The notes under the pieces: generated by a model
Told to the model about the DNA's origin: nothing
Seen by the model: only the letters and a program-made list of their open reading frames with translations
Databases searched by the model: none
Part shown: positions 91 through 11,272 of the stretch, one piece after another
How the letters are laid out: each line of letters begins with the position of its first letter
Position numbering within the stretch: position 1 is the first letter of the stretch
Made by a program: the position numbers and the translations under genes
Source of the DNA: Eubacterium sp.
GTDB taxonomy: Bacteria > Bacillota > Clostridia > Oscillospirales > Acutalibacteraceae
Direction: 5' to 3'
Assembly (NCBI GenBank): GCA_017543415.1
Contig: JAFYGD010000173.1
Location: forward strand, 1-11,281
DNA: 11,281 bases

Positions 91-1344
91 TCACTTCCTT
101 TCTAATGCAAATGAAAACGAAAAGTCCTCGCCCGAGCGGTTAATAACCGTCTGAACGAAGTATCTTATATCGTCCATTGCGTGGTCGTTTTCCTTTTTGG
201 GTGCGTCGCGCCGGATATCGTTATCCCAGCGGTAAACCGAAAATTCGCGCAGGGTATCAACACATTCGGGAAAGATGAATATTTCACAGTCCTTGAGTGC
301 CTGGCAAACCCTGTTAATGCCCGATAGTACATCGTTATCCGCCTTGATAACGGTGTATTCGCCGTGGCGCTTTACTGCCTCAATAAAAGAGGCGGCGGAC
401 GGGTCAATAACGAGCGCTTCTATCTTCCTCTCCCCTGCAAGCTTTTTCAGTTCAAGGTAATATTCCTCGTCCGTAAGCTGAATTCCCTTATCGCGCGAGG
501 AGTGGTAAAACTCGTTTATACGGTACCACTTTTCCCCTGCCTTTCCCCAAAGCCCGAGCGAAAACGGGTTAACGGTTCCGTAATCGCAGGAAAGATAGAA
601 TTTTTCAAAATGCTCTGCGCGCCTGACGTGCTTTTCGGGGGAAAACATAGGGTAAACCAGACCTTCGGCGGCTACCCATTTTCCCTCAACAAAGCGCTCG
701 TAAAACGCACCCGAATAAAGGCTTTTATAACGGCTTTTGATTTCGTTTGAAAGGGAGGGATTATCGTCCATTGTAAAATGCAGGTAAAGCATATTTTTTA
801 TCTCTGATTTTTTTATCCACTCATTATAAAACCAGTGATAAGGGTGCTCGGGGTTACAGTTGAACCAGAATTTTGAGCCTGTAAGCGAACACCTTGCGAG
901 CGCCTGCTCTACGAAGGAGCGCGGCATAAGCGCAACCTCGTCAAAAAGAACGCCGCCCAGGGTCATACCCTGGATTAAGGCAGCCGAGCCTTCATCCCTT
1001 CCTCCGAAAAGATAAAACCGGTTTTCCGCGTTGCCCCTTCTGATAACAAGAATGTTCCGGCTTACCTTTTCATTTACCTCAAAGCCGAGCGATTTAATCA
1101 GCGGCACAAGCGGAGTTATCACATTGCGCCTTAGGGACGCAATGGTTTTACCGCAAAGGGCAAAAGAGGTACCGCCAAAGGCGTAAAACGCCCAGCATAT
1201 AAATGAAATTGACATTGAAAGCGTTTTACCGCTTCTTACCGCACCGTCGCAGATTATGCCGTTTTTGTTAGCGTAGCTGCTTTTCGAGCACCACCAGTTA
1301 AGCACCTTAAGCTGCTTTTTTGAAAAGGTTCTGAACTCAGTCAT
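91..1344 (-). CDS. Phage terminase large subunit, PBSX-like (packaging ATPase/nuclease)
   Basis: This 417-residue protein is the motor that pumps phage DNA into proheads and cuts concatemers. The N-terminal ATPase shows a Walker A-type loop GAVRSGKT (residues 34-41) and a Walker B strand VLFDEVAL (132-139, D135 and E136). The C-terminal RNase H-like nuclease shows the acidic positions expected: D254 in LSCDYG, D314 in VIDPS, and an Asp cluster near 388-392 (DHAMDD). Length and motif order fit the PBSX-type large terminase family. It overlaps the upstream small-subunit gene by 8 bases and is followed by the portal start. All motifs are intact, so it could be functional, although the surrounding prophage cannot be judged from this window. 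Confidence 0.93.
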   Translation of the reverse strand: MTEFRTFSKKQLKVLNWWCSKSSYANKNGIICDGAVRSGKTLSMSISFICWAFYAFGGTSFALCGKTIASLRRNVITPLVPLIKSLGFEVNEKVSRNILVIRRGNAENRFYLFGGRDEGSAALIQGMTLGGVLFDEVALMPRSFVEQALARCSLTGSKFWFNCNPEHPYHWFYNEWIKKSEIKNMLYLHFTMDDNPSLSNEIKSRYKSLYSGAFYERFVEGKWVAAEGLVYPMFSPEKHVRRAEHFEKFYLSCDYGTVNPFSLGLWGKAGEKWYRINEFYHSSRDKGIQLTDEEYYLELKKLAGERKIEALVIDPSAASFIEAVKRHGEYTVIKADNDVLSGINRVCQALKDCEIFIFPECVDTLREFSVYRWDNDIRRDAPKKENDHAMDDIRYFVQTVINRSGEDFSFSFALERK

Positions 1345-1648
1345 TTAAAGAATCACCTTTCGTGTTTTCAGCACTTTTCTCAAGCGCTTGATAAAACGAA
1401 AGCGCTCCGTCGCTGCCCGATACGGAATAATCCTTCAGCTTTTCGCACGCCTTGATTCTGTCAAAAAACTTAATCTCCATTCCGCCGCCGCGCGGGCGTT
1501 TAATTTCGCTGACGTTAAAAAGATTAAGCTTCGGCAGCTTTTCAAGCGCGTCCTCCTCGCTTAAAAACAAAAGCGAAACCGCGTCGCTTACATTACCGTA
1601 GGCAAGCTTTTTAAGAGTGCTTTCAACCCTGTCGTTTTTTGAGGACAT
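1337..1648 (-). CDS. Probable phage terminase small subunit
   Basis: This 103-residue protein lies directly upstream of, and overlaps by 8 bases, the large terminase. That is the usual place for the DNA-recognition subunit. Its C-terminal half (VSEIKRPRGGGMEIKFFDRIKACEKL) resembles the tail of Terminase_2/PBSX-type small subunits, where a Gly-rich turn is followed by a 'K-x-x-D-+-x-x-A-x-x-x-L' helix. It is much shorter than XtmA of PBSX, and I see no clear N-terminal helix-turn-helix. The start is supported by a strong ribosome binding site (GGGAGGGG) ending about 6 bases upstream. The function is inferred from position plus this C-terminal pattern. Confidence 0.65.
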   Translation of the reverse strand: MSSKNDRVESTLKKLAYGNVSDAVSLLFLSEEDALEKLPKLNLFNVSEIKRPRGGGMEIKFFDRIKACEKLKDYSVSGSDGALSFYQALEKSAENTKGDSLND

Positions 1649-1688
1649 TTTGTCCCCTCCCTTCAGCCGTTATTGAGAGGTCAAAAAT

Positions 1689-1727
1689 AAAAACCCCTCT
1701 ACTAATACCCTTGAAAGAGGGGTTTTT
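1689..1727 (-). terminator. Intrinsic terminator in the leader of the phage terminase genes
   Basis: A perfect 12-bp inverted repeat (AAAAACCCCTCT at 1689-1700, AGAGGGGTTTTT at 1716-1727) encloses a 15-base loop. Read on the minus strand, the stem is followed by TTTTTATTTTT, a good U-tract. On the plus strand only five T follow. It lies between two divergent gene starts, so it ends no visible gene. It sits between a candidate minus-strand promoter (1784-1812) and the small terminase start, so it may act as an attenuator or close off a short RNA. Confidence 0.75.
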
Positions 1728-1783
1728 ATGCGTCAGATATGCATAATTGGACCGTAAATGGCGCAAAAAAATATTTTTTCCCG

Positions 1784-1812
1784 ATTTTATGCGTATTTGA
1801 CTCTATATTCAA
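1784..1812 (-). promoter_or_regulatory. Candidate minus-strand promoter upstream of the terminase genes
   Basis: On the minus strand, TTGAAT (1812-1807) and TAAAAT (1789-1784) are separated by exactly 17 bases, close to the sigma-A consensus. The start point would be near 1777, giving a leader of about 130 bases to the small terminase ATG with the 1689-1727 hairpin inside it. Its -35 is only 8 bases from the -35 of the divergent blaI-type promoter. Called from sequence match only. Confidence 0.5.
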
Positions 1813-1820
1813 ATTCACCC

Positions 1821-1849
1821 TTGACAAGTCTGGTCTATTATTGTAGACT
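1821..1849 (+). promoter_or_regulatory. Promoter of the BlaI/BlaR1-type operon
   Basis: A perfect TTGACA -35 (1821-1826), a 17-base spacer and TAGACT as -10 (1844-1849). A BlaI-type dyad (1833-1848) covers the spacer and nearly all of the -10, and a second dyad lies just downstream, so occupancy by the repressor would block RNA polymerase. This is the arrangement expected for an autoregulated BlaI operon. Confidence 0.75.
1833..1848. promoter_or_regulatory. BlaI-type operator 1
   Basis: A perfect dyad, GTCTA - 6 bases - TAGAC, lies over the promoter spacer and -10. The half-site resembles the TACA/TGTA-containing dyads bound by BlaI/MecI repressors but is not identical to the staphylococcal sequence. 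It is paired with a second similar dyad exactly 26 bases downstream. Confidence 0.7.
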
Positions 1850-1858
1850 AACAGTATA

Positions 1859-1874
1859 GTCGACAATTATAGAC
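1859..1874. promoter_or_regulatory. BlaI-type operator 2
   Basis: A dyad GTCGA - 6 bases - TAGAC, with one mismatch relative to operator 1, starts 26 bases after it. It lies just downstream of the expected transcription start and ends two bases before the AGGAGG ribosome binding site. Two dyads at this spacing suggest two repressor dimers binding on nearly the same helical face. Confidence 0.65.
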
Positions 1875-1888
1875 CAAGGAGGTAAGCT

Positions 1889-2248
1889 ATGGAGCTTAAA
1901 TTATGTGAAAGCGATTTCCGCTTTATGTGCGTTATCTGGGAGAACGAGCCGCTCGCCTCCCGCGATTTGGTAATAAAATGCAACGAAGCCCTCGGCTGGA
2001 AAAAATCCACAACCTACACCGTTTTGAAAAAGATGACGGAAAAGGGCTTTGCTAAAAATGAGAACAGCGTTGTCACTTCGCTGATTGAAAAGGAGAAGGT
2101 GCAAAAGGCGGCGAGCGAGCATATTGTGGAAAGCTCGTTCGGCGGCTCGCTCCCCTCGTTTCTCGCCTCGTTTTTCGGCGGTAAAAAAATCAGCGACAAG
2201 GAAGCCGAGGAGCTGAAAGCCCTTATTGACAATTTCACGGAGGAATAA
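1889..2248 (+). CDS. BlaI/MecI/CopY-family transcriptional repressor
   Basis: This 119-residue protein has the full layout of a BlaI-type repressor. Residues 1-75 form a winged helix ('LASRDLVIKCNEALGWKKSTTYTVLKKMTEKGF', then a wing). The C-terminal dimer helix region (PSFLASFFGGKKISDKEAEELKALID) contains the area that BlaR1-type proteases cleave in known systems. The start is fixed by AAGGAGG 6 bases upstream. It is one base away from the blaR1-like gene (stop TAA 2246-2248, next ATG 2250), so the pair is one operon. By family knowledge it represses its own operon through the two dyads upstream until cleaved or displaced after membrane signalling. Confidence 0.93.
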   Translation: MELKLCESDFRFMCVIWENEPLASRDLVIKCNEALGWKKSTTYTVLKKMTEKGFAKNENSVVTSLIEKEKVQKAASEHIVESSFGGSLPSFLASFFGGKKISDKEAEELKALIDNFTEE

Positions 2249-2249
2249 A

Positions 2250-5012
2250 ATGACCGATTTATTCATAAGCGTTCTTAATATGAGCATAACCGCGAGCTAT
2301 GTCATCCTTGCGGTTTTGCTGCTGCGCCTTACGCTGAAGGGATTTCCTAAAAAATACAGCTACGCGCTTTGGAGCGTGGTGGGCTTTCGGCTTATCTGTC
2401 CCTTCAGTTTCAAATCGGTATTCAGCCTCTTTTCGCTGAACCTCTTTGATATGACGAAGGCGCAAAGGTGGGAGGAACATCAACTGAACTACATACCCCC
2501 TGCAGATAAAACAGCGTTTTCGTCAGAGGTAACCACCGGAATTCCGTCTCTTAACAGCGTGGCACAGAGCACGGTTCTTACAAGCCCCGCTTATCAGAAA
2601 AATTACAGCTGGCTGTTGCTTGCGCTTATGCTGCTTTGGTGCGCAGGTATTCTCACCGTTCTTATCATTTCAGCCGTAAAACTTCTAAAGCTGAAACAAC
2701 AGCTGCGCTTTGCCGTAAAAGCAGAAGGCAATATTTACACCTGCGAAAATATCTCTTCGCCGTTTATAGTTGGCATTATCAAGCCGAAAATCTATATACC
2801 CGCAGGAATTGACGAAAGCTATAAGGAATATGTTCTGGCGCACGAGCGGTATCACCTTAAAAGGCGCGATAATATTATCAAGCTCTTTGCTTATTTCCTG
2901 TTAGTACTGCATTGGTTTAACCCGCTCGTATGGCTTGCCTTTTACCTTATGAGCAAGGATATGGAAATGAGCTGCGACGAGGCGGTATTAAATCAGAACG
3001 AGGGCATCAAAAAAGCATACTCCACCGCCCTGCTCTACTTTGCAACCGATAAAAAATTTCCTGCCCCGAGCCCGCTTTCGTTTTCCGAAAACGGAGTCAG
3101 GGCAAGGATAAAAAATGTTTTAAAATACAAAAAGCCGAAAAAGGTTTTGCAGGCGGCGGCAATTATGCTTTGCCTCGCGCTGCTCACAGCCTGCGCCGCC
3201 AACCCGAAGCAGACGGTCACAGAGGAAAGTGTGAAAAACGCTTTTGATAAAATCAGCAGCTCCTTTGAAAGCGATAATTACACCGCAGGCAAGGTTATCG
3301 GCGCAAATATGGCAATATCCATGGTGCGCGAAAACGGCTATTACTACGATAAAATCACCGTCAAAAAGGACAGCCTGAAAATCGTTGACAACCTCGGCAA
3401 TCAGATTTTTGTCAGCGAAAAAGCGGAGAAAGCGCCGCTTGCCGCCAAAGATGATAACGGCGTTCTGGAGCTGGAAACGGGCGGCAGTATTCCGCTGACG
3501 GTATATGAGGATTACCGCTATTTGTTCCGCGACGGCGACTACACCTGCATTACCTATACTAACAGTAAGATGACGGAGGAGGGCACTGTAACCTACAAGG
3601 TTTATTATAACAACGGCGCGCCGTTCGCCTTTTGCGATATGAACTGGGTGTACCTGCTTGAGCCGGAGGATATGGATTCCCTTATCACCGACGCGATTCT
3701 GAAAAACGAAAAGGATAACTACATCAAAGGCGATTATTTCGGCGAAGCGCACCGTATTCTCGATACAAAATTTGTTGACCGAACGGAGCAGGAGGTCGTC
3801 GTTTATCTCTATGCAAAGGTGGCGTGGCTGTCGCAGGAAAAAGGCAACGAGCTCGGCAACCGCCTTGTAAACACAAGCGGCAGCGCAGGCCCCGTTATCA
3901 TTACCTTTTCAAAAGACGGTTCAAGGTATACGCTGAACGACTATGAGGGGCTTGGAAGTCTGCACGAATCGGATTTGAGAAGCCGTATTTCCGAAAGTGA
4001 TTACCAAAAACTTGAACAGTTACAAAAAACGGGCACTAAAGAAATTGACCAAGCGCTATATAAACAGGTTGCGGAAAAGTATTCCCTTGATACAACCGAA
4101 TTCATTATGACCGCCTTTGACCTATGGGACGGCTACGTAAAAACAGAAGAAGACCGCAATACGCTTATTAACTTTGGCGAATATACGGTTAAATACTGCT
4201 TTTCACATTTTATTAATGAGGACGGCGAAGAATCGCTTGAGCGCAAATACATGCTCATTTTAAAAGAGTTGCTTGGCTACGACGCACAGAGCATCGAGGC
4301 GCGCAGCGGCCGTGATTTTTTTGATATGCTTGTTACCGAATACCGCAATGACCGCAATCATTACAAATCTGACGAGGAAATGCAAAAAAATTCGCCCTAC
4401 GGATATCTTCTTTTACAAATGACGGGTAACCTTTTTGAAACCTCGGACTATGTAAAACAGGTTTATCAAAACAATCCTGTATTTAATAAGGGCGAAAAAA
4501 TAACCTTTGCAAAAGCAAAGGAACTGATAATTAACGGTGACAGCACTAAAATTACCGATTTTCAGGATTATGAATATGCCGATTCCGCCTCCGGAGTATA
4601 CGATTACACCCTTGATATAGCAGACTTTAACGGTTATCTTTGCGTGGGTACGGGCGCGTATGATTTAACAATAGAACTATTTGCAAATGACGGAACCCTG
4701 CTTGAAAACTATTCAAGGCCTGTTACTGCTGACAGTTTGGTATATATTACGGAAAAGCTTGCAACAGAACTTGCCGAAAAGGAAATGCAACAGGAATACG
4801 GCAGCGGCTACTCCGACTTTGTATTTAACGGTGAAATTGAACTGCAGCGTGCAAATGAAGGCGATTTTGTTACAACGCTTAACCCGGGCAAAAACGACGC
4901 CTGTTATGCAGTGCATTTTAATAATTTTAAAAAATCGGTAGTCGCCGTTTGCTACATTGACGCACGTGACGGCACCGCGCTTGACATCAAGGAATACAAA
5001 ACAGATTTTTAA
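2250..5012 (+). CDS. BlaR1/MecR1-family M56 membrane metalloprotease with unusual extracellular sensor
   Basis: This 920-residue protein begins with a multi-helix membrane region (helices near residues 10-28, 35-52, 118-140 and 210-230). It carries a cytosolic M56 zinc protease: H198-E-R-Y-H202 is the HExxH motif, and the downstream EMSCDE244 supplies the expected acidic ligand. A last membrane helix (about 299-314) ends in LLTAC, so C315 is lipobox-like, and about 600 residues follow outside. Residues 320-585 resemble the extracellular tails of many clostridial M56 proteins. Residues 590-920 I do not recognise. I find no S-x-x-K/S-x-N/K-T-G series typical of the BlaR1 penicillin-binding domain. 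ATG 2250 is chosen over a TTG at 2226 because GGAGG (2239-2243) fits it. Expected role: signal-triggered cleavage of the BlaI-type partner. Confidence 0.88.
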   Translation: MTDLFISVLNMSITASYVILAVLLLRLTLKGFPKKYSYALWSVVGFRLICPFSFKSVFSLFSLNLFDMTKAQRWEEHQLNYIPPADKTAFSSEVTTGIPSLNSVAQSTVLTSPAYQKNYSWLLLALMLLWCAGILTVLIISAVKLLKLKQQLRFAVKAEGNIYTCENISSPFIVGIIKPKIYIPAGIDESYKEYVLAHERYHLKRRDNIIKLFAYFLLVLHWFNPLVWLAFYLMSKDMEMSCDEAVLNQNEGIKKAYSTALLYFATDKKFPAPSPLSFSENGVRARIKNVLKYKKPKKVLQAAAIMLCLALLTACAANPKQTVTEESVKNAFDKISSSFESDNYTAGKVIGANMAISMVRENGYYYDKITVKKDSLKIVDNLGNQIFVSEKAEKAPLAAKDDNGVLELETGGSIPLTVYEDYRYLFRDGDYTCITYTNSKMTEEGTVTYKVYYNNGAPFAFCDMNWVYLLEPEDMDSLITDAILKNEKDNYIKGDYFGEAHRILDTKFVDRTEQEVVVYLYAKVAWLSQEKGNELGNRLVNTSGSAGPVIITFSKDGSRYTLNDYEGLGSLHESDLRSRISESDYQKLEQLQKTGTKEIDQALYKQVAEKYSLDTTEFIMTAFDLWDGYVKTEEDRNTLINFGEYTVKYCFSHFINEDGEESLERKYMLILKELLGYDAQSIEARSGRDFFDMLVTEYRNDRNHYKSDEEMQKNSPYGYLLLQMTGNLFETSDYVKQVYQNNPVFNKGEKITFAKAKELIINGDSTKITDFQDYEYADSASGVYDYTLDIADFNGYLCVGTGAYDLTIELFANDGTLLENYSRPVTADSLVYITEKLATELAEKEMQQEYGSGYSDFVFNGEIELQRANEGDFVTTLNPGKNDACYAVHFNNFKKSVVAVCYIDARDGTALDIKEYKTDF

Positions 5013-10960: not shown

Positions 10961-11072
10961 GAGGCTGCCCTTCGTCCAAACATATTCCGCGATTAAAGAA
11001 TAACGCAAGCGTTAAACTAAAAATCGCTGCATATGTTTCTCCTCTCAGCGGCAGTACAAGTATCTGCCGCTG
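10961..11072. repeat. Structured module copy A (variable hairpin between conserved arms)
   Basis: Plus strand: conserved GAGGCTGCCCTTCGTC (10961-10976), one variable base, then a hairpin (10978-11038). The conserved CTCCTCTCAGC stretch follows, leading into a second hairpin with arms CAGCGGCAG and CTGCCGCTG around a 9-base loop (11046-11072). The variable hairpin pairs AAACATAT with ATATGTTT, then GCGATT with AATCGC, then TAACGC with GCGTTA, with 3-base internal bulges (TCC opposite TGC) after the first stem. Copy B has the same layout with different but still paired bases. Not translated; no transposase inside. Confidence 0.75.
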
Positions 11073-11105
11073 TAACGAATAATGGCTCTTGTAAAAGGCA
11101 AAGAT

Positions 11106-11135
11106 AAAAAAAAGAACAGACGAAAGTCTGTTCTT
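11106..11135 (-). terminator. Terminator downstream of the 5S rRNA 3' end
   Basis: A perfect 10-bp stem (AAGAACAGAC at 11112-11121, GTCTGTTCTT at 11126-11135) on a GAAA loop (TTTC on the minus strand), followed on the minus strand by eight T. It begins 7 bases after the 5S-like 3' end and is typical of the end of an rRNA operon. Confidence 0.85.
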
Positions 11136-11141
11136 CTTTTA

Positions 11142-11176
11142 TGTCGGCATCGACCTATTTTCCCGGGAGGCTGCCC
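11142..11176 (-). rRNA. rrf: 5S ribosomal RNA 3' end (partial, interrupted or truncated)
   Basis: Minus strand: GGGAAAATAGGTCGATGCCG followed by ACA matches the conserved 3' third of bacterial 5S rRNA (loop E strand and helix I 3' strand). The preceding GGGCAGCCTCCC resembles the 3' part of the helix IV hairpin. A strong terminator follows, as after a normal rRNA operon. The expected adjoining 5S sequence upstream is replaced by module B. A CAGCGGCAGATACTTG stretch that also looks like 5S (after helix II) reappears about 80 bases further on, at 11257-11272. Either the 5S gene is split by an insertion or only a 3' fragment remains; the window ends too soon to tell. Confidence 0.5.
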
Positions 11177-11272
11177 TTCGTCAAAACCTCCTGCGTGATT
11201 GAAGTATTGAATAATACTAATAATCACTACGGAGGTTTCTCCTCTCAGCGGCAGTACAAGTATCTGCCGCTG
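11167..11272. repeat. Structured module copy B (variable hairpin between conserved arms)
   Basis: Same organisation as copy A, whose start lies 206 bases to the left. GAGGCTGCCCTTCGTC (11167-11182), one base, a hairpin (11184-11238), then the same CTCCTCTCAGC stretch and the CAGCGGCAG / CTGCCGCTG hairpin (11246-11272). The variable hairpin pairs AAACCTCC with GGAGGTTT, GTGATT with AATCAC, and AGTATT with AATACT around GAAT, again with 3-base internal bulges (TGC opposite TAC). Its first 10 bases coincide with the 5S-like segment read on the minus strand. Sequence outside the two modules differs (AATAATTTG here, TAACGAATA after copy A), so these are true module edges. Confidence 0.75.

Follow-up and report, generated by a model that had tools for sequence, protein, structure and literature searches.

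The window, that is, the whole stretch of 11,281 nt of Eubacterium sp. DNA analysed here (contig C135), carries at 91-5012 a phage terminase large-subunit gene (Terminase_6N) at the contig start and then a penicillinase-repressor/BlaR1-peptidase gene pair. Towards its other end lie two direct copies of a structured module, both on the minus strand and both at the positions given in the initial annotation. The module, named R1, is made up of a hairpin (HP1) and a core, and spans 11072-10972 (copy 1) and 11272-11178 (copy 2) on the minus strand (Table 1). The core runs from GAGAGGA through a long stem-loop (stem 2) to GACGA; in stem 2 an 8-bp helix (AAAC...) is separated from a 6-bp helix by a 3x3 internal loop GNA/GNA, and a second internal loop leads on to an apical helix. 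As had been observed from the two copies alone, the central hairpin keeps its pairing in both (ATAT/ATAT against CTCC/GGAG, GCGATT/AATCGC against GTGATT/AATCAC, and TAACGC/GCGTTA against AGTATT/AATACT), and the bulges described at a fixed place correspond to the same 3x3 internal loop in each copy. The module is shorter than first drawn: HP1 and core belong to it, whereas a 5S rRNA gene tail located 3' of the module begins with the outermost common arm (10961-10971 and 11167-11177). After copy 2 this tail comprises 37 nt and its terminator, while only 11 nt are left after copy 1. The arms of a pseudoknot proposed with GGCAG and CCTC are likewise 5S target sequence and, because the sequence after GACGN differs from target to target, the pseudoknot is not a feature of the module. 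The same arrangement of tail and module was found in genome G030 (locus L125) downstream of a full 5S gene, which was recognised by eye, and at locus L119 an Rfam 5S match lies upstream of an R1 copy. The 5S gene expected upstream of copy 2 is unreadable because the contig ends there, 9 bases upstream of HP1.

Table 1. Parts of the two R1 copies and of the sequences next to them in the window
Feature	Position	Strand	Description
HP1 of copy 2 (type A)	11246..11272	-	9-bp hairpin, loop ATACTTGTA
Core of copy 2	11178..11246	-	GAGAGGAG linker, stem 2 with GNA/GNA internal loop, 3' end GACGA; 78.5 bits against model R1
Displaced 3' tail of 5S rRNA gene	11141..11177	-	begins directly 3' of GACGA; compare tail at L125 (by eye) and Rfam 5S match at L119
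Terminator of the 5S tail	11107..11140	-	inverted repeat (I2) and T run
Spacer between terminator and HP1 of copy 1	11073..11106	-	without clear antisense segment
HP1 of copy 1	11046..11072	-	identical to HP1 of copy 2
Core of copy 1	10972..11046	-	linker, stem 2, GACGA end; 88.7 bits against model R1
11-nt remnant of 5S tail (AGGGCAGCCTC)	10961..10971	-	after GACGA of copy 1; direct repeat from offset 0

Selection on structure, which the initial annotation had deduced from the compensatory changes between the two copies, is strongly supported by covariation in further copies. The family was collected by BLAST and then with a covariance model, R1 (threshold within the genus, E ≤ 0.01). Across 32 aligned copies 95.2% of the core cells were paired, against 80.9% in shuffles, double compensatory change occurred in 20 of the 23 pairs, and none of 500 shuffles was as high on all five measures. 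HP1 falls into types that are mutually unrelated in sequence: by regular expression, and thus approximately, 183 unique copies were sorted into 48 of type A, 62 of B1, 46 of C, 8 of D and 7 of B2, with 12 unsorted. Among the 27 distinct stems of type A, whose loop is invariant by that selection, 97.1% of the cells pair, against 74.5% in shuffles, and 53 of 243 cells show double change, a value that none of 500 shuffles attained; three of the five measures beat all 500 shuffles, while the other two were equalled by 87 and 186 of them. The minus-strand copies in the window each fold better than 200 of 200 shuffles (z -4.2 and -5.6), and the plus strand folds equally well (z -4.3 and -5.9). Since folding does not separate the strands, the strand was decided by the counts of G-T and A-C cells over many copies, which were 65 and 13, respectively, in helices a and b of 172 distinct cores. 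This excess indicates that one strand is the functional one, as RNA or as single-stranded DNA (ssDNA), the polarity of the fold being compatible with both. A reading of the AGGAG...ATATG motif as a ribosome binding site with start codon was rejected, the ATG not being conserved. The view that the module belongs to no named family holds for Rfam, in which the window gave no family at its gathering score, the matches at E ≤ 10 being far below theirs.

R1 is present in five copies in its own genome; within the genus, 50 of the 80 genomes contain it, with a maximum of 43 copies (G038). With the same model it was found in 5 of 250 genomes and 3 of 135 genera of a family sample, in 3 of 394 genomes of an order sample and in 3 of 391 of a class sample; the last two counts each include the own genome, and the order count also one other genome of the genus. 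Divergent copies occur in three further families (L320, L321 and L322; E values of 2.6e-5, 2.7e-6 and 5.8e-6 per single genome, based on a rough model calibration). At L320 the core ends at the base directly before tRNA-Tyr, and at L321 there are two tandem copies with a repeated target, as judged by eye; no tRNA gene was found in the 3 kb covered at L322. Titles of the records retrieved by pattern search refer to gut Clostridia (goat, sheep, deer and others) or to uncultured ones, and in 1 of 11 to Bacteroides. Plasmid and phage DNA gave no match to R1. In G038 six contigs (C6, C8, C22, C35, C66 and C67) have an R1 core no more than about 90 nt from their end, which indicates that the repeats probably break assemblies. 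At L024, L048, L105, L109 and other loci R1 copies are paired head to head, with only the HP1 hairpins between them and GACGA at both outer ends. Three loci (L055, L063 and L200) share an R1 context common to genomes of two genera, with what we take to be a tRNA-like end upstream and the start of a nucleotidyltransferase-like gene downstream; this suggests recent transfer.

In 59 of the 171 copies with enough flank, a duplicate of upstream sequence begins directly after GACGN (score of at least 12), against 28 of 3398 pairings with the upstream sequence of another copy. A start at +1 was obtained for 5 of the 171 and at +2 for none; starts at -1 or -2 also reach the threshold, in 36 and 35 copies, mismatches being allowed so that these counts overlap. 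The other 112 copies have no duplicate at this score. Upstream, the duplicated tail mostly belongs to an intact gene; in some cases it is part of a preceding array unit or of a gene fragment (L026). At a score of at least 11 there are 67 duplicated copies, of which 64 form 30 register clusters of target, several of them hit repeatedly (the other three were dropped, their upstream window being cut off). The number of distinct genes is below 30, as some clusters represent cuts at neighbouring bases of one gene (rpsU, 5S) or an earlier R1 junction. Targets comprise the T-loops and acceptor ends of several tRNAs, two regions of 5S rRNA, on the opposite strand the 5' part of tRNA-Thr and tRNA-Leu, and, among protein genes, the 3' ends of rpsU (S21), rpsI (S9) and a rubrerythrin gene; one more is presumably a parS-like palindrome. 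No GACGA-like sequence common to the target cut sites was seen by eye.

At nine protein-gene loci the displaced and the restored coding tails differ by synonymous changes in 9 codons and non-synonymous changes in 3, of which two concern the junction codon, and four of the nine tail pairs are identical. On the sequences compared, these differences match a gene end brought in from a relative; if the duplicate were decaying, the protein would not be preserved. Duplication of the target site by staggered cuts is unlikely, the repeats being 11 to at least 40 nt long and the tail differences mostly synonymous. Two rpsU sites without the element, at L310 and L308, can be set against the occupied one at L107: relative to L310, L107 contains an inserted unit of about 200 nt, about 69 nt of which are repeated tail and terminator. 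Units also follow each other in tandem, three at tRNA-Ser (L110), two at 5S (L125) and others elsewhere, and 15 tRNA-borne R1 units measure 172-280 nt each. Among 20 stretches of 0.4 to 19.9 kb examined beside R1 copies no large carrier was recognised; the long case, 8.7 kb from tRNA-Tyr at L132, holds metabolic-type ORFs and no recombinase, as judged by eye. As read from the compared sequences, the element is mobile, its fold is conserved with a strand bias, its junction lies at GACGN and its target sites recur, and in this structural and mobility reading we have high confidence.

Between the upstream tail and HP1, 31 of the 67 duplicated copies carry a segment antisense to their target (score of at least 9), compared with 86 of 1946 mismatched pairings; at this score the other 36 have none. 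The antisense match spans the cut in 27 of the 31, typically from about -12 to +7 (the exceptions are L044, L049, L234 and L238), and in 4 of the 31 it lies in an earlier unit of the array and not beside the copy's own HP1 (twice at L110, and at L203 and L244). At least one copy with antisense occurs in 15 of the 30 target clusters. The segment tracks variants of the target: the 5S sequence TTGGAGGG is matched by CCCTCCAA, and TTGGCGGG by CCCGCCAA (L017 and L013, respectively). tRNA and rpsU genes that lack R1 can also be followed by antisense-like segments, as at L308, where by eye an rpsU-antisense-like segment follows the rpsU terminator in the absence of an R1 module. Of 71 distinct tRNA contexts drawn from the fetched loci, a sample biased towards R1, 40 were judged R1-free; a duplicated tail was found downstream in 13 of these and antisense in 9, with none upstream. 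The regular expression used for this missed at least two R1-like units (L217 and L254). With a second rule the numbers were 11 of 34 for the duplicated tail and 7 of 34 for antisense, two of the 11 (L062 and L213, missed by this rule) being R1 units after all. Some such units end in other modules. One of them, R2, has the form GAGAAACGAAC ... GGGAGAA - small hairpin - TTCGATAGTTGAGARGA and terminates tRNA-tail units as R1 does (L092, L119, L126, L197, L209, L231 and L257); another, R3, does so at L047 and L021. For 12 loci with R2 or R3, Rfam at E ≤ 0.05 gave no family for the modules. R2 or R3 units and R1 units succeed each other at a single tRNA (L092 and L047). Given their presence in R1-free units and their stacking with R1, R1 may belong to a set of interchangeable ends.

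The best reading of these results is that R1 is the strand-specific, folded recombination site at the 3' end of non-autonomous integrative elements of very small size. On the module strand, such a unit consists of a restoring gene tail, a terminator, in many cases an antisense segment, HP1, GAGAGGA, stem 2 and GACGN. It would move as a circle that is at least partly single-stranded, in which HP1 and stem 2 would fold and be bound in folded form. A cut would be made after GACGN, the predicted nick site, and at the matching point of the target, and strand exchange would then join the element's tail to the target gene and leave the original tail behind. The antisense segment, where present, probably brings target and element into register through base pairing. 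The way of working would be oriT- or attC-like. The initial annotation had offered a functional RNA or an ssDNA recombination substrate; the latter fits best, because the element is mobile and has its junctions where the fold ends on the 3' side, whereas a functional RNA is less likely in view of the terminator that stands upstream of HP1 in the tRNA-borne units read. Taken as a whole, the ssDNA reading is somewhat favoured over the sum of its alternatives.

The likeliest class of enzyme would be a single-strand nickase or recombinase, for which an HUH relaxase is put first and a tyrosine recombinase second. In four genomes (G024, G037, G047 and G064) all R1 copies, one or two in each and five together, are placed directly before mobC, which is the position of an oriT. 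MobC and relaxase were identified by Pfam at three of these loci and by ORFs at the fourth; for the fifth copy only the start of a mobC-like ORF is present before the contig end. A folded inverted repeat lying immediately before a fixed 3' end is a further resemblance to a MOBP oriT. The relaxase is put first because of these five copies and because the TrwC relaxase, according to PMC3264647, integrates DNA site-specifically. R1 differs from an oriT in that it also occurs in genomes without a relaxase match and in that the nick at GACGN is a predicted one. Moreover, a scan of 30 relaxase loci, a subset of the relaxase matches, gave no strong R1 at 29 of them, only the known linked one being above 17 bits. 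Relaxase PF03432 does not track R1, with 29 of 50 R1-positive and 17 of 30 R1-negative genomes containing it. Three plasmids whose relaxases are 35-37% identical have no strong R1 (best 16.7 bits, and not before mobC), a search of viral contigs with one mobC-linked relaxase found none, and no match to RP4/R64-like nic motifs was seen by eye. A relaxase is put forward as the putative enzyme tentatively, at less than even probability. Nor do PF01797, PF00589, PF00078 or PF02371 track R1 across the 80 genomes of the genus.

The strongest alternative, which we consider unlikely without dismissing it, is that R1 marks a conventional att site left by decayed integrative and mobilizable elements (IMEs) with a tyrosine integrase, which would have used the 3' ends of tRNA and ribosomal-protein genes, HP1 and stem 2 being merely accessory or oriT sequence beside attR. 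One integrase normally serves one site, whereas a single common fold ends here at 30 register clusters of target. Tyrosine integrases are present in 75 of the 80 genomes and, among the matches listed, one lies about 2.8 kb from R1 in contig C109 of G066 and another, confirmed by Pfam, about 1 kb from a copy in G013; against this, the R1-positive genomes G000 and G010, both incomplete, have no integrase match among those listed, and the 15 tRNA-borne units leave no room for an integrase. IMEs as described in PMC5704250 do choose the same kind of target, rpsI included, and have a repeat that includes and restores the gene end. R1 units differ in being gene-free and so short, in using one folded end for many targets and in reaching up to 43 copies; the 15 tRNA-borne units are too short for integrase and mobilization genes of their own, the five mobC-linked copies being the exception. 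Improbable by comparison is a structured RNA, either a small RNA or a cis-regulator, spread by duplication. It would account for the RNA-like fold, the tolerance of G-T on one strand and the closeness to strongly transcribed genes, but less well for the recombination junction at the 3' end of the fold, the patchy presence and the lack of an Rfam match; the terminator a few tens of bases upstream of HP1 also argues against it, with partial coverage, since a run of at least five T within 96 nt upstream of HP1 was found in 72 of 175 copies.

Two other classes of mobile element come into question at lower probability still. A REP-like element moved by a Y1 (RAYT/IS200-type) transposase, which we think quite improbable, would agree with a hairpin having a GGAG-type foot and with the head-to-head pairs, which resemble BIMEs, and several high-copy genomes do encode Y1_Tnp (Pfam) proteins, presumably RAYT-like. 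Duplication of the target is not expected of the Y1/REP class, however; no R1 above 13.4 bits was detected in the 20 Y1 loci fetched, and G033, G028 and G063, with 22, 17 and 12 R1 copies, lack a Y1 match at E ≤ 0.001. A retroelement or self-splicing intron with the antisense segment as internal guide is the least credible and has hardly any claim. A group I guide spans both sides of the cut, as the antisense does here, and many of the targets encode abundant RNAs; parS-like and opposite-strand tRNA targets, and again the lack of an Rfam match, speak against it, and unlike what would be expected of a group II intron or retroelement, reverse transcriptase was found in 21 of the 80 genomes, in only 16 of the 50 R1-positive ones and not in any of the six genomes richest in R1.

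The R1 element, read as the small integrative unit with an ssDNA end, can also be placed among other systems. With integron attC sites it shares a fold conserved over sequence with a strand bias, a junction at the base of the fold and tandem arrays. It differs in having no cargo, in its target-specific closing sequence and in its end, GTTTGGACGN; RYYYAAC/GTTRRRY boxes were not seen in the R1 alignments. IS200/IS605 and REP/RAYT elements also have folded ssDNA ends and choose their cut site by base pairing (PMC5934647), whereas R1 duplicates its target and no transposase is linked to it at the 20 Y1 loci. For IS608 a tetranucleotide suffices, in contrast to the guide-like segment of about 19 nt in R1 units. 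The bridge RNA of IS110 (PMC11208158) similarly has a target-matching segment beside structured modules; the IS110 Transposase_20 occurs in only 1 of the 80 genomes, and that one has no R1 match. No description of the R1 element was found among the literature matches listed, and the element is best understood as a variant among integrative elements. A bolder proposal, which we regard as speculative and rather unlikely, would be an integron-like system of gene-free cassettes with interchangeable folded ends (R1, R2 and R3) that stack at tRNA, 5S and ribosomal-protein genes, and in which a rewritable antisense of about 19 nt, and not a sequence read by a protein, picks the target by pairing with ssDNA.

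If the ssDNA reading is true, R1 elements would represent a class of minimal mobile DNA that enters essential genes harmlessly, with a target that base pairing, and not a protein, may determine. This would link the biology of oriT, attC and integrative elements and might provide a compact system for programmable insertion. It would also explain the scattered duplicated tails of tRNA and 5S genes in these genomes.
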